A stretch of DNA of 64,000 bases, from positions 186,001-250,000 of the forward strand of contig CP054185.1 of the NCBI GenBank assembly GCA_015180985.1. The letters are read 5' to 3'. Origin of the DNA: Flammeovirgaceae bacterium (GTDB lineage: Bacteria; Bacteroidota; Bacteroidia; Cytophagales; Cyclobacteriaceae). The translations under genes were made by a program, and so were the position numbers. Each line of letters begins with the position of its first letter. Position 1 is the first letter of the stretch. Shown one piece after another: positions 23,475 to 28,046 of the stretch. Under the pieces are notes generated by a model. That model ran no database searches. It had not been told where the DNA came from and saw only the letters and a program-made list of their open reading frames with translations.

Positions 23475-23900
23475 TTGAAACCCACATCCATGATAGAAAC
23501 CACCAGCGAAATGCACGTAGAAGCCGCCCGCATCCAGCAGGAAATTAAAGACTACCTGGGGCTGCGAACGGCTGACCTCGTATTTGAATACAGTACCGTT
23601 GACCGCAAGGTAAAGCTGGACCTGATTACCATCAACCCGCGGCACAACCAGGCGTTTTTGTTTCACTCCGAAACAGGAACGGATAAACTGGACGCCCTGA
23701 AGAAAATGCTCAACTACGTGCAGAACTATAAGGAAAAAGAAAACAGCTACACCATCCAGTGGGTGGCCAAAGGCGAGCGCGAACTGCATACCTCGTACTT
23801 CCGGGCCGGCAACATTATGGATGCGCTGCAAAAATTGTATTACGGCCGCGACATGAACACGATAACCGTTTTTAGTGTTGTATTGAATCCGGTGTCTTAG
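23475..23900 (+). CDS. Conserved-looking 141-aa (or 136-aa) cytosolic protein
   Basis: An alpha/beta protein without signal peptide or membrane segment. Visible parts: VEAARIQQEIKDYLGL, VDRKVKLDLITINPRHNQ, LKKMLNYVQNYKEKENSY and GNIMDALQKLYYGRD. The ATG at 23490 (MIETTSEMH) is an equally good start. It is 12 bases ahead of the IscA/ErpA gene and probably in one operon with it. I do not recognise the family and give no function. Confidence 0.75.
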   Translation: MKPTSMIETTSEMHVEAARIQQEIKDYLGLRTADLVFEYSTVDRKVKLDLITINPRHNQAFLFHSETGTDKLDALKKMLNYVQNYKEKENSYTIQWVAKGERELHTSYFRAGNIMDALQKLYYGRDMNTITVFSVVLNPVS

Positions 23901-23912
23901 GTTGAATGATCT

Positions 23913-24239
23913 ATGATTAGCGTAACTGAAAAAGCGAAGGATAAGATTATAGAATTGCGGAAGCAGGAAGGAAAAGTTTCCGAGCCCAACATCCGTGTGT
24001 CAGTAAAAGGCGGGGGCTGTTCGGGACTGATGTACGATCTGTCGTTCGATGAATCCATTAACCCGGCCGACCAGGTGTTTGAAGACAAGGGTATTAAAAT
24101 TCTGGTCGATAAAAAAAGTTTGCTGTACCTGCTGGGCACCACCCTCGATTTTTCGGACGGCCTCAACGGCAAGGGCTTTCAGTTCATCAACCCGAACGCC
24201 TCGCGCACCTGCGGCTGCGGGGAGAGTTTTGCAGTTTAG
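23913..24239 (+). CDS. Iron-sulfur cluster assembly A-type carrier (IscA/ErpA/SufA)
   Basis: A 108-aa A-type carrier that accepts and delivers Fe-S clusters to apo-proteins. The three ligand Cys are present: C36 in GGGCSGL and C100/C102 in RTCGCGESF. Length is typical. The last 68 bases before the final two codons are repeated exactly at 26610-26677, where the copy also encodes the same C-terminus (…FAV stop) with synonymous changes GCA to GCG and TAG to TAA. The gene is intact, but its 3' end may come from the inserted segment that follows it. Confidence 0.93.
   Translation: MISVTEKAKDKIIELRKQEGKVSEPNIRVSVKGGGCSGLMYDLSFDESINPADQVFEDKGIKILVDKKSLLYLLGTTLDFSDGLNGKGFQFINPNASRTCGCGESFAV
24165..24238 (+). 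repeat. Direct repeat, copy A (3' end of the A-type carrier gene)
   Basis: Positions 24165-24232 are identical to 26610-26677 (68 bp); 24165-24238 match 26610-26683 with one difference in 74. Copy A is fused to the complete gene. It forms the left border of the 2.4-kb segment carrying the propeller lipoprotein, Cys-rich peptide and TolC fragment. Confidence 0.9.
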
Positions 24240-24350
24240 GAAATCTCAGTAGTGCAGATATGCTAGTGATGGGTTCATAATATATCACAAAATATTATCA
24301 GTAACCAAGATCGTGTAGTATTGACTTGGATTATATTGAAAACATATAAA

Positions 24351-25472
24351 CTAAAATGTTTTAAACCTACCAAACACCAGAACCGCATTACCCGGAACAA
24401 CGTCATTGACTGGGTTTATACCACCTTCCGTGTTCGCAAGCAGTTCAACAGGTATAAAACCTATGAAGGAACTTTGTTTATAAAGATTCACAAAGAATAT
24501 TAATTTGATGTCATCAAGTGATTGATGAAATTGTATGTCATCTGTCAATCCGGAAAAAGTAATTGTATGACCAGTCTTGCGGTTGAATAGAGAAGTGAGG
24601 TAATCGCCTCCTTTTTCAAATGTGAGCAGTATAAATGCATCATTGATCAGCACTCTAAAATGGCGAAAAGCATACTGCTGATTACGGAGTTTCGTTACAA
24701 AATCGTAAGCATTGTCGAAATCAGCTTCATCATAAAATTTTTGCGGGAGACTCCATGCCCCGTAATCGAGCTGATAAGCAAGTTGCACCCCATCTTCATC
24801 AACCGTGTATATGTTATTGATAGCACTGTCCCAAAAAAAAATTTCTCCTTTGGATTCCGGAAAGTGATACCCAGTCAAAAAATTAAAGTATTTCCGTAGT
24901 TTCTCCGAAACCGGAATCAGGTCTTTTAAAACCATCCCATCTTCCATATTATAGATCACCAACTTGCCTTGGTTATATTCGGTAACTTCATTTCCTGTAT
25001 ATAAAATAACTACTCCATTACGAAGAATGCTAAATGACTGGGCAAAAACCGGAATTACAACTGTACGTTCCCATTGCAGTAAATCATTGTATTGATGAAT
25101 CTTCTTGGCCGTCCGATCCAATATGAAGACTTTCCTGTCTGATACAGCAATACTGGTTATTTCGCCAAGCCTGAAATCCGGTACAACCTGTTGGGTCACT
25201 TCGCAACGATGGTTCAGCAGGCTAACAATTGCCGGTGAAGTTGAATGAATAATCCAACCTCCAAAAAAAGGGAAAGCATACTTAACCTCCCCTAAATCAT
25301 GAAAACCTCCGACATTAATAACTTTAAATGAATCAATCTGTGCTATGCGGCTCAAAGTGATTCGCGATTCAAACATTTCGGTTATATGTATTGATTCAAT
25401 ACTATTCTTATCTGATTCTTTCTTTGCACAGCCAATGAGTAAAGTTAACAAGCATAAAAAGATTCTGTTCAT
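24351..25472 (-). CDS. Six-bladed beta-propeller lipoprotein
   Basis: About 373 aa starting at 25472 (MNRIFLCLLTLLIGCAKKE), which gives a textbook lipobox LIGC; an ATG at 25499 would add nine residues before it. The body resembles the 6-bladed beta-propeller lipoproteins (BF3164/NVEALA-associated type) that Bacteroidota encode beside small secreted peptides: repeated strands such as KVFILDRTAKKIHQYN and IFFWDSAINNIYTVDEDG. It follows the Cys-rich peptide gene on the same strand with a terminator between. Function unknown; surface or periplasmic binding is likely. Confidence 0.8.
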   Translation of the reverse strand: MNRIFLCLLTLLIGCAKKESDKNSIESIHITEMFESRITLSRIAQIDSFKVINVGGFHDLGEVKYAFPFFGGWIIHSTSPAIVSLLNHRCEVTQQVVPDFRLGEITSIAVSDRKVFILDRTAKKIHQYNDLLQWERTVVIPVFAQSFSILRNGVVILYTGNEVTEYNQGKLVIYNMEDGMVLKDLIPVSEKLRKYFNFLTGYHFPESKGEIFFWDSAINNIYTVDEDGVQLAYQLDYGAWSLPQKFYDEADFDNAYDFVTKLRNQQYAFRHFRVLINDAFILLTFEKGGDYLTSLFNRKTGHTITFSGLTDDIQFHQSLDDIKLIFFVNLYKQSSFIGFIPVELLANTEGGINPVNDVVPGNAVLVFGRFKTF

Positions 25473-25536
25473 AGGGTATTGCTTAGTAGTTTGTCGCACT
25501 TATTACTTGAATACAGAAATTACTTTGCTTCCAAAA

Positions 25537-25570
25537 AACAAGAAGACCCCGTAGGTCTTCTTGTTCTTTT
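25537..25570 (-). terminator. Strong intrinsic terminator after the peptide gene
   Basis: Perfect 12-bp stem AACAAGAAGACC (25537-25548) with GGTCTTCTTGTT (25554-25565), loop of five. Read on the minus strand it is followed by a run of T (complement of 25533-25538). It separates the peptide gene from the propeller gene, probably giving high peptide and low lipoprotein expression. Confidence 0.75.
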
Positions 25571-25573
25571 ACA

Positions 25574-25777
25574 TTATTCATTATTCCCACCACTGCCACA
25601 CCGTACGGCACCACAATCATTCGTACCCGCTGCACAGCAAAACTGTGTACCTTCTGGATTGCCCATTAGTGTCCCTTTATCCACACTAGCGTGGATATAC
25701 GGCATTGTTTGCATAACAAGTCCAACAACAAAAAGTCCTGTGACTGCAATTTTCAAAACTTTAGATGATTTCTTCAT
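25574..25777 (-). CDS. Small secreted Cys-rich peptide (NVEALA-like)
   Basis: A 67-aa precursor with a basic N-terminus and hydrophobic signal (about residues 9-30, ending near YIHA), leaving roughly 37 residues with four Cys (FCCAAG, NDCG, VRCGSG), Gly/Asn-rich. The arrangement of small secreted peptide plus downstream beta-propeller lipoprotein matches the NVEALA peptide/propeller pairs of Bacteroidota, although the NVEALA string itself is absent. Four cysteines could form two disulfides. Function is unknown; signalling, adhesion or antagonistic roles are all open. Confidence 0.7.
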   Translation of the reverse strand: MKKSSKVLKIAVTGLFVVGLVMQTMPYIHASVDKGTLMGNPEGTQFCCAAGTNDCGAVRCGSGGNNE

Positions 25778-26047
25778 AAGGATATAGAATTAAGATATCC
25801 ACCCACCCCCTCCGGAGCCCCTCACCGGCTACCCTTTCGGATTACCGGCCGGTGAAGTATGCAGGGGCGAATTGGTATACCGAAGTAATAACCGGTTGTG
25901 TTATTGAGCAAATCAATTTTGCAGGTAAAAGCACATGCTTACGGCCCGGTAATTTAGTGTGCCGCCAAACCAAAAAAATGGTTTTTGGCGCCTATTTACA
26001 CACACACACACACGAAAAATTTTGACAAAACCAGGCCAAACCATACA
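25778..26047. other. Non-coding stretch in the inserted segment with CA microsatellite and imperfect hairpin
   Basis: No credible frame. A run of CA dinucleotides (about 25998-26012) and an imperfect hairpin CGCCAAACCA/TGGTTTTTGGCG (about 25962-25990) are present. The GC-rich start (25800-25860) differs in composition from the AT-rich genes beside it, consistent with a patchwork origin. Confidence 0.5.
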
Positions 26048-26482
26048 TCAGCGAATATTAATAAGGGTACTGTTCCACTGGTTAATATCGAATAAAAAAT
26101 CATTGTAACGACTCAGGTTTGTGTTTACCGACAAGGTACCACCAGTAACAGCCAACGGTTGAAGCAGCCCAAGATTTAGGACGCCTGTGGTTTGTTGCCG
26201 CTCCTGAAAACGAATGGTACCATCATCTAAACGGTTTTTGAAAAAATCACGGTTATAATCAGGTAAATTTCCCTCTAACCGCAACTGCGGGTTGTAATTG
26301 GAACGAAAGACACGGTACTGCCAATAGCGCGTTTCCTTTCTTGTTTCGTTTGAACGCCCAACTGGCGATTGCTCAAGGGCAATGTCAATAGCCTGATTAA
26401 GAGAGTAAATTATCTGAGACCATCCTTTAGAAGAACAAACAATAAAAAAAAGAATTGTACAGATTGACGCCTTCTTACTCAT
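26048..26482 (-). pseudogene. Truncated TolC-family gene (N-terminal third only)
   Basis: The 144 residues comprise a signal peptide (to about GWSQ) and the first OEP region (YSLNQAIDIALEQSP, RYWQYRVFRSNYNPQL and TTGVLNLGLLQPLAVTGGTL). Full TolC proteins are about 450-500 aa; here the frame ends after NSTLINIR and the following DNA is non-coding. No remainder of the gene is found in the window. It is therefore a broken gene cut off at its 3' side inside the inserted segment. Confidence 0.8.
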
Positions 26483-26609
26483 ACCTTTTACATTTAGGTT
26501 TAGCTTGTTATCTAAATATACAAATTACTGAGATAGTGCATGTGCATTAGTAATATTCAGGTGCACACCATCAACATATAGTCAAACTGATCCTAATTGA
26601 TTTCCTCAA

Positions 26610-26683
26610 AACGGCAAGGGCTTTCAGTTCATCAACCCGAACGCCTCGCGCACCTGCGGCTGCGGGGAGAGTTTTGCGGTTTA
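26610..26683 (+). repeat. Direct repeat, copy B (displaced 3' end of the A-type carrier gene)
   Basis: Exact 68-bp match to 24165-24232. In frame it still encodes the carrier C-terminus and ends in TAA at 26682-26684, one base out of phase with the stop of the convergent ridA (26681-26683 on the complement). Upstream of the repeat the coding frame is lost. Confidence 0.9.
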
Positions 26684-27085
26684 ATCAACTGTAGCAATAC
26701 ACTTTAATTCAATAGCAATGGGTGTGGGCAGCGCATTCACTTCCACTGTAGTGCGGCAGGGCTGATTGTCCTTAAAGTATTCCGCATAAATTTTATTGAA
26801 TACCGGAAAATCATCCTTCATATTGGTCAGGAACACGGTTACATCCACCAGGTTTTCCCATCGCGAGCCGGAAGCCTCCAGGATGTAGCGCACATTCTGA
26901 AACACCGAGTGGCACTGCTCTTCGATATTGTAAGCAATACTATTTCCGTTGGCATCCAGCGTTACGCCCGGAATTTCCTTTGATCCTCTCTTTCGGGGGC
27001 CCACCCCGGATAAGAACAGCAGGTTGCCCACCCTGCGCGCATGCGGGTAAGCACCAACGGGTTCGGGGGCTTTATCGGAATACAT
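26681..27085 (-). CDS. RidA family protein (2-aminomuconate deaminase-like)
   Basis: A 134-aa trimeric Rid-fold enzyme. R111 in PCRTTVEV is the conserved carboxylate-binding Arg of active Rid deaminases, and the N-terminus (GAYPHARRVGNLLFLSGVG) resembles the 2-aminomuconate deaminase branch rather than canonical RidA. It likely hydrolyses an enamine or imine. No kynurenine-pathway genes are adjacent. A general imine deaminase role is the alternative. Confidence 0.88.
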   Translation of the reverse strand: MYSDKAPEPVGAYPHARRVGNLLFLSGVGPRKRGSKEIPGVTLDANGNSIAYNIEEQCHSVFQNVRYILEASGSRWENLVDVTVFLTNMKDDFPVFNKIYAEYFKDNQPCRTTVEVNALPTPIAIELKCIATVD

Positions 27086-27086
27086 A

Positions 27087-28046
27087 TTATCCTAATTTAA
27101 AAGTAACCGGCACAACATACCGAGACCTAATTGGAAATCCCCTGATCCTGGCCGGATTCCATTTTGGCGAAAGTTTAACTACCCGTATTGCTTCATCCGC
27201 AAGTTCCTTATTCGGAGAACTAACTACATTAAATTCCGATAAGAGTCCGGATTCATTGATGATAAATTCCACAAACACTTTTCCCTCAACTCCATTGTTT
27301 CTAGAGATTCTTGGATACTTCAATTCATTCATTATACGATTATAAAACACATTCAGTCCTCCATCAATCTCAGCTTGAGTTTGAAATTCATTATACTCAG
27401 ATACAACCTGCCCATCCATTACTCTTTTACCTTTTATGAATTTTCCCAATGAATAGTCCTCAATCAAATACTCGTTATGATTTGGAAACCGGATGGTCCA
27501 TGTTGAATCCCTAAGCCCGTTCACAATTTTTCCTGATTCTATAATCTGTTTACCTAAAAGCTCTGAGTAATAGTTACAATATCCATTGGAGTTGGTGACC
27601 GTTTGAACACCTGCCGTGTCCCAGCAGCTTAAAAGCCTATATTTAAATGGATACGTCAAGTCAAAAGTGCCGGCCTCAGAATACGCAAGTATTGCTTTGG
27701 CTTTCCCGCTCTCATAATATTCAGTTGCTATACCAAAACGAGCACCCAATTTAAAGTAAGCACGTTCTTTGAGGGAGCCATTTTCGTAATAATAAAGGCT
27801 AAATCCATTCTGAATCCCCTGGGAATTAAACACTTCAATCGATCGACTTTTTTTAGAAGAACAATAATATGCTTTCACTGTATCTTTAAATGTCCTCTCC
27901 GAACCTGAAACTATTTGTCCCTCTTTGAAATAGTAACAATTCATCTCAGTTGTAACCAGGTCAGCCTTATCGTAATAAAGTCTGCTTTGTGCTGAAATAA
28001 AATTTGAAAGAAAAACAAACTTGATAAGAAATGTATAGTACTTCAT
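27087..28046 (-). CDS. TonB C-terminal domain protein with toxin/MORN-type repeats
   Basis: A 319-aa exported protein with a signal peptide near residue 19 and no clear TonB transmembrane anchor beyond it. The middle has antitoxin/MORN-variant repeats (QNGFSLYYYENGSLKERAYF, ARFGIATEYYESGKAKAIL). The C-terminal 80 residues form a TonB domain (KYPRISRNNGVEGKVFVEFIINESG and PKWNPARIRGFPIRSRYVVPVTF). Such proteins are common in Bacteroidota; whether they energise outer-membrane receptors is unproven. It stops one base before the ridA start. Confidence 0.85.
   Translation of the reverse strand: MKYYTFLIKFVFLSNFISAQSRLYYDKADLVTTEMNCYYFKEGQIVSGSERTFKDTVKAYYCSSKKSRSIEVFNSQGIQNGFSLYYYENGSLKERAYFKLGARFGIATEYYESGKAKAILAYSEAGTFDLTYPFKYRLLSCWDTAGVQTVTNSNGYCNYYSELLGKQIIESGKIVNGLRDSTWTIRFPNHNEYLIEDYSLGKFIKGKRVMDGQVVSEYNEFQTQAEIDGGLNVFYNRIMNELKYPRISRNNGVEGKVFVEFIINESGLLSEFNVVSSPNKELADEAIRVVKLSPKWNPARIRGFPIRSRYVVPVTFKLG

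Follow-up and report, generated by a model that had tools for sequence, protein, structure and literature searches.

Insertion at the 3' end of a housekeeping gene is known from e14, a cryptic prophage of Escherichia coli K-12 with a putative integrase gene, whose insertion in icd left a 165-bp duplication with 12 nucleotide exchanges that alter two residues conservatively (PMC11148124). In a 64-kb window (the whole stretch of DNA analysed, G000:C1:186001-250000) of the 3.38-Mb Flammeovirgaceae genome G000, a foreign-looking piece of 2,371 nt has been inserted exactly behind the gene of an A-type Fe-S carrier (iscA/erpA type, here iscA), between two near-identical copies of that gene's 3' end; a single, fairly recent insertion that looks one-off is the best explanation. 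In layout, the iscA insert appears to work like e14 in icd: insertion is into a protein gene with a housekeeping role, at its 3' end, one copy completes the gene, a partial copy is displaced and the frame stays intact, whereas the iscA duplication is only 74 nt long with one difference, the insert is 2.4 kb and no recombinase was recognised in it.

Two further systems invite comparison. Cis-mobilizable elements (CIMEs) are described as decayed integrative and conjugative or integrative and mobilizable elements that retain attL and attR (PMC5704250). Like them, the iscA insert is cargo between direct repeats, one of which is a gene end, with no integrase, but no related integrase-bearing element using the iscA site was found. 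Homology-facilitated illegitimate recombination, which generally deletes resident DNA of similar size (PMC3240628), would share with this locus a short linear DNA beside a homologous segment and short matches at the illegitimate junction; at iscA, in contrast, no resident DNA was lost and a duplication of 74 nt was added. The locus, with which none of the titles listed by the literature searches dealt, is a clean and relatively datable case of a gene-end duplication that mimics an attachment (att) site where none is shown, and the empty-site and indel-survey tests applied here help to tell an apparent island from a real one.

The duplicated gene end and the empty site

On recount, the two copies of the repeat (Table 1) agree at 73 of 74 nt: positions 1-68 are exact, position 69 is A in copy A and G in copy B (GCA/GCG), and positions 70-74 (GTTTA) are equal again. 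The next letter is G in copy A, giving TAG, and A in copy B, giving TAA, and both differences are silent. The original prediction had described an exact 68-bp repeat, which is right for the first 68 nt and falls short of the true length; it had also placed the end of the intact gene in copy A and seen in copy B the same C-terminal codons with only synonymous changes and a TAA (26682-26684) overlapping the stop of the ridA-like gene, and in these points the sequence agrees with it. The pair is the only near-identical direct repeat of at least 30 nt reported in the window, where the members of three further repeat families agree at 74-77%; with the 68 nt as query, the whole genome gave two matches, copies A and B, and no third.

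Table 1. Features at the iscA-ridA locus, in positions of the 64-kb window
Feature	Positions	Strand	Basis
Intact 108-aa gene of an A-type Fe-S carrier (iscA/erpA type), stop TAG	23913..24239	+	PF01521 E 6.9e-20; TIGR00049 over cut-off; open reading frame
Copy A of repeat: iscA codons 85-108 and TA of stop	24165..24238	+	Repeat comparison
TTTAGGAAATC, left arm of imperfect inverted repeat	24235..24245	+	Insert-end comparison
Inserted DNA, 2,371 nt, 39.0% GC; not at this place in G010, G011	24239..26609	.	Flank comparison
DUF5128 6-bladed propeller, 382 aa, putative lipoprotein	24351..25499	-	DUF5128 E 1.4e-12; 48% identical homologue in G007
67-aa peptide, signal-like N-terminal segment, Cys-rich end	25574..25777	-	Homologues in G007 and G012 (51% over 59 aa)
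Conserved cassette leader; 3' part 25780-25891 with conserved structure	25778..26050	-	Cassette comparison
tolC-like start, 144 codons, stops where cassette leader begins	26048..26482	-	Similarity to full tolC
TTGAGGAAATC, right arm, 10/11 match to left arm	26599..26609	-	Insert-end comparison
Copy B, the displaced 3' end of iscA, with the junction of G010 and G011 on its right	26610..26683	+	
ridA-like gene, convergent to iscA	26681..27085	-	PF01042 E 7.4e-28

The genus set comprised 17 genomes including G000, and G010 and G011 were its nearest members by IscA identity (96% and 97%). Among named iscA loci, the closest are those of Cytophagales. Both carry the empty site: their iscA TAA overlaps the ridA stop, the same arrangement as at the copy B/ridA junction, where copy B also has the same GCGGTTTAATCAAC. 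When the flanks of the window insert are joined, they align without a gap to G011 (228/251 nt) and to G010 (217/249 nt), so that the insert is best read as a gain in the G000 lineage and not as a loss in its relatives; together with the copy B junction, the empty site means that 2,371 nt were inserted with a 74-nt duplication. The earlier suggestions that relatives should show iscA abutting ridA with overlapping stops, and that DNA had entered at the 3' end of a protein gene and displaced its old tail, are thereby borne out, the functional gene ending in copy A. A ridA gene lies convergent to and downstream of iscA at 17 iscA loci in the 16 other genus genomes; at the 15 loci outside G010 and G011, the ends of the tblastn matches are 13-759 nt apart, with no copy of the iscA end between them beyond matches of 7-10 nt.

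The copies also show the polarity of the event. The changed letters (GCA, TAG) are held by copy A, and copy B shares GCG and TAA with G010 and G011; compared with either relative, copy B differs at 6 of 74 positions and copy A at 7, against 1 of 74 between the copies, which argues for a young event in which both copies fit the resident allele. Furthermore, the insert has a GC content of 39.0% compared with 46.5% for the window, and none of 617 stretches as long as the insert (taken every 100 nt) is as low. The 2.4-kb AT-rich cargo of the original prediction is hence confirmed as inserted DNA, with its size now set at 2,371 nt.

Two other histories were discarded. Duplication of the entire carrier gene in tandem finds no counterpart in the genus genomes, which have no second close iscA (paralogues of 29-36% aside) except for the draft genome G013 with two full loci; an ancient interior common to all relatives is contradicted by propeller matches in only 3 of the 17 genus genomes, G000 included, the other two not being at iscA. 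The two iscA-ridA loci of G013, L006 (G013:C355) and L020 (G013:C279), perhaps reflect a mixed assembly. G000 itself has a second A-type carrier paralogue of 32% identity (G000:C1:1469716-1470000), for which one in-frame TAG was reported. Beyond ridA, an AT-rich TonB-C gene (window 27087-28046) is present in G010 and missing at that place in G011.

Origin of the insert

The most economical mechanism, which we hold to be about evenly poised between right and wrong, is capture of a fragment during repair of a staggered break, with fill-in duplicating the iscA end. A linear fragment, already broken and made up of the tolC start and a leader-peptide-propeller cassette, would have entered a break, with ends staggered by about 70 nt, where iscA meets ridA, or repair would have switched template back over the last 74 nt of iscA. 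Fill-in of both ends would then duplicate the gene end, copy A keeping iscA whole and copy B keeping the old ridA junction. The mismatch between the copies lies 5 nt from the junction, where an (A)GTTTA belonging to the fragment may have paired with the GTTTA of iscA; such a match would account for both changes in copy A without any later mutation. Repair capture is favoured by the truncated state of the insert, cut inside tolC, by the lack of a recognised recombinase and by the fact that no second user of the site was seen in the searches made. The empty site in the sister genomes and a duplication derived from the resident allele are what end joining should leave, a feature common to the rival explanations. 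Ku (PF02735) is encoded in G000 (E-value 1.5e-45) and in five of six genomes tested, G000 included, the exception being G010.

Several points weigh against repair capture. An att site predicts a duplication that stops precisely at the stop codon, as this one does; random repair would end there only by luck or selection. No donor of the fragment was found, the nearest propeller being 48% identical (G007), the ends of the insert carry an unexplained imperfect inverted repeat, and the search for end-joining machinery was confined to Ku. Moreover, we compared 400 kb of G000 (about 12%) with 400 kb of G011 (alignment over 354 kb at 87.05% identity), counting indels of at least 150 nt that faced no more than 60 nt in the other genome and chaining matches with overlaps below 150 nt, a limit that longer duplications would escape. 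Among 17 indels (11 insertions on the G000 side and six on the G011 side), 16 had overlaps of at most 12 nt and the iscA insert alone a longer one, of 74 nt; the duplication is therefore exceptional in the lineage, and this counts against all routine processes, repair among them. The survey also recorded a 6.8-kb insertion on the G011 side (G011:C11), opposite G000:C1:436685 in the syntenic comparison.

A decayed site-specific element is a possible origin, although we consider it rather improbable. The insert would then be a CIME-like relic that carried its own iscA 3' end as attP, was integrated by a tyrosine recombinase and afterwards shed that gene together with the bulk of its body; copy A would then end in attP-derived sequence and copy B would be attR. 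This would fit the topology, in which flanking direct repeats include one that rebuilds the target gene, and also the stop of the duplication at the stop codon, the confinement of the differences to the end of copy A, the truncated cargo and a layout like that of e14 in icd (PMC11148124). However, no recombinase gene was recognised inside, as had been noted earlier: the three interior genes gave no recombinase match in Pfam, NCBIfam or PHROGs, and five further small open reading frames compared with PHROGs gave one weak match, to a family of unknown function (E-value 0.0084). At 74 nt the repeat also exceeds the general range of 8-60 bp stated for repeats of this type (PMC5704250), and 68 wholly identical nucleotides would be unusual for an independently evolving attP.

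Indeed, no other use of the site came to light, and none of the searched relatives had a related element there. An IscA search of the 17 genus genomes found an end-only match in G000 alone and an end copy in none of the other 16. Among 100 iscA-bearing loci (some of them paralogues), only eight matched their own iscA end, each over just 18-27 nt. Viral contigs gave at least 120 pattern matches, of which 112 hold the first Cys motif of the gene and eight are cut by a contig edge; none of the 112 judgeable viral matches listed is a gene-end fragment, and the iscA 3' end was rejected as a phage site, the matches listed being genes with that motif or edge-cut. Many IscA/ErpA-like genes on viral contigs (L145-L264) resemble those of Bacteroidota. 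The repeat had no match in phage records and one of 72% in plasmid records. In an order-wide DNA search with the 74 nt, which scored up to two candidates per genome, 187 of 390 genomes had any match, the other 203 falling outside assessment at the DNA level; among the matches listed only G000 appears twice, and in eleven genomes (G001, G002, G097, G123, G162, G253, G282, G297, G309, G347, and G408) a second match lies outside those listed.

The surroundings of the recombinases of G000 agree with this. The genome has four tyrosine recombinases, and the repeat, in its two copies only, is near none of them, the nearest being about 378 kb away. The 20-kb stretches around the four contain no near-identical long repeat pair: one recombinase has two repeat families of 72% and 84% nearby, both spaced 7,553 nt, a second has a 37-nt pair of 89% whose members are separated by just 155 nt, and the remaining two have none. 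Consequently, what the original prediction had proposed on this side, namely an att site used by an integrase, a trans-mobilised element, or cargo exchange between fixed repeats, with the repeat to be sought beside integrases of the same genome, found no backing in these searches. An integrase origin of the insert, while conceivable, is unsupported, and the insert is a member of no integrase-type family, because the recombinase that defines such families was sought without success.

Integration by a single crossover is unlikely. A circular DNA from a conspecific strain, with an iscA 3' end beside the cargo, would have integrated through the 68-74 nt of homology, giving the same topology and accounting for the near-identity of the copies, but this presupposes an iscA end already joined to the cargo, that is, the event to be explained, and no such joined molecule was found among phage and plasmid records. 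Homology of 68-74 nt is, moreover, short for RecA.

We regard it as highly unlikely that the leader-peptide-propeller cassette is a mobile unit without a recombinase, inserting behind genes in convergent orientation and duplicating about 73-75 nt of their 3' ends, a reading which, if true, would mean gene-end copying by cassettes without a recombinase. A cassette on G012:C26 lies between two copies of a tolC 3' end, in the same orientation as at iscA, the copies measuring 73 nt (L138:17159-17231) and at least 103 nt (L138:19204-19306, to the contig end). Duplication of a tolC-plus-cassette unit followed by a deletion in tolC is the plainer reading of that locus, since a truncated leader borders the first copy, and the sequence downstream of that copy runs on as it does next to the complete tolC of G012:C56.

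A transposon-like unit delimited by TTTAGGAAATC and TTGAGGAAATC, with a 70-nt target duplication, is very hard to credit. Its arms match at 10 of 11 positions at the exact insert ends, and among random pairs of 25-nt windows a fraction of 0.00075-0.001 equalled the arm match and 0.007-0.012 reached an exact run of 8; the arms were, however, noticed post hoc. The arm pattern occurs at eight sites in G000 versus four for the reversed control, and the six sites outside the insert are at least 64 kb from one another, so that a second bounded unit with the same inverted ends was rejected for this genome. No transposase was recognised in the insert (Pfam, NCBIfam, PHROGs), the GTTTA match of copy A would be left partly to chance, and the target duplications of known transposons are far shorter. 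An assembly artefact, finally, is scarcely credible in a one-contig genome rated 100% complete, with interior genes that have homologues in the same genus.

Cargo, related cassettes and the structured leader

The peptide/propeller pair and the broken tolC described earlier are all present in the insert, which has no second copy elsewhere in G000. The propeller scores 47.9 bits against DUF5128, above the curated cut-off of the family (22.9), and is a putative lipoprotein, judging from its N terminus; no second DUF5128 gene was found in G000, and none in G010 or G011. For the 67-aa peptide there was no family match in Pfam, NCBIfam or PHROGs. The tolC-like start is 49% identical over 139 residues to a full gene of G015, itself a Pfam OEP match, and tolC genes at other loci of the genus are equally close (up to 56%); no longer tolC of this type was found in G000, G010 or G011.

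Arrays of related cassettes occur at loci other than iscA in G007, G012, and G015, and their neighbours may be RND, hlyD, tolC, and atp genes as read from their translations; a family scan covered one tolC and the G007 propeller only. The iscA cassette shares gene order and leader with these peptide plus DUF5128-like cassettes, and the peptide motif with one cassette each of G007 and G012, whereas in G000 a single cassette stands alone behind iscA. The cargo thus seems to derive from a pool of secreted peptide cassettes at the level of the genus, and to have been broken already on arrival. We take peptide plus DUF5128 pairs to be a putative secreted system of Bacteroidota type. Across the order, propeller matches were found in 25 of 380 genomes, with identities of 20-31% outside G000 and G007. 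Relocation from the atp-side locus, which has cassettes in G007 and G015, was rejected, as the matching stretches of G000 and G011 have no cassette. Remnants of tolC also lie upstream of cassette leaders, as 3' ends in G012 and as two pieces of 98-99% DNA identity in G015 (L139:16433-16634), a sign of unit duplication and decay in these genomes.

The 3' element of the leader (minus strand; L136-L140, L128) was aligned in 17 copies, giving 20 consensus pairs, six of them changed on both sides, with 95.0% of cells paired. Its covariation score of 0.324 exceeds the shuffled mean of 0.203 and was reached by none of 500 shuffles, a count that, among related sequences, is not a probability; the number of further pair types was equalled by 74 of the 500. 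The leader sequence of the window taken singly has only moderate stability (z -1.68, a value that 12 of 200 shuffles equalled or bettered), and no Rfam family reached gathering level in window positions 23500-27500. A model built from the 17 copies had no match in 10 propeller loci of other genera and gave 20 matches in 27 sources: 18 strong and full-length, including L128 from outside the input set, another truncated at the end of a contig and the last weak (E-value 0.0045). The structured leader before the cassette peptide genes may be a cis-regulatory RNA.

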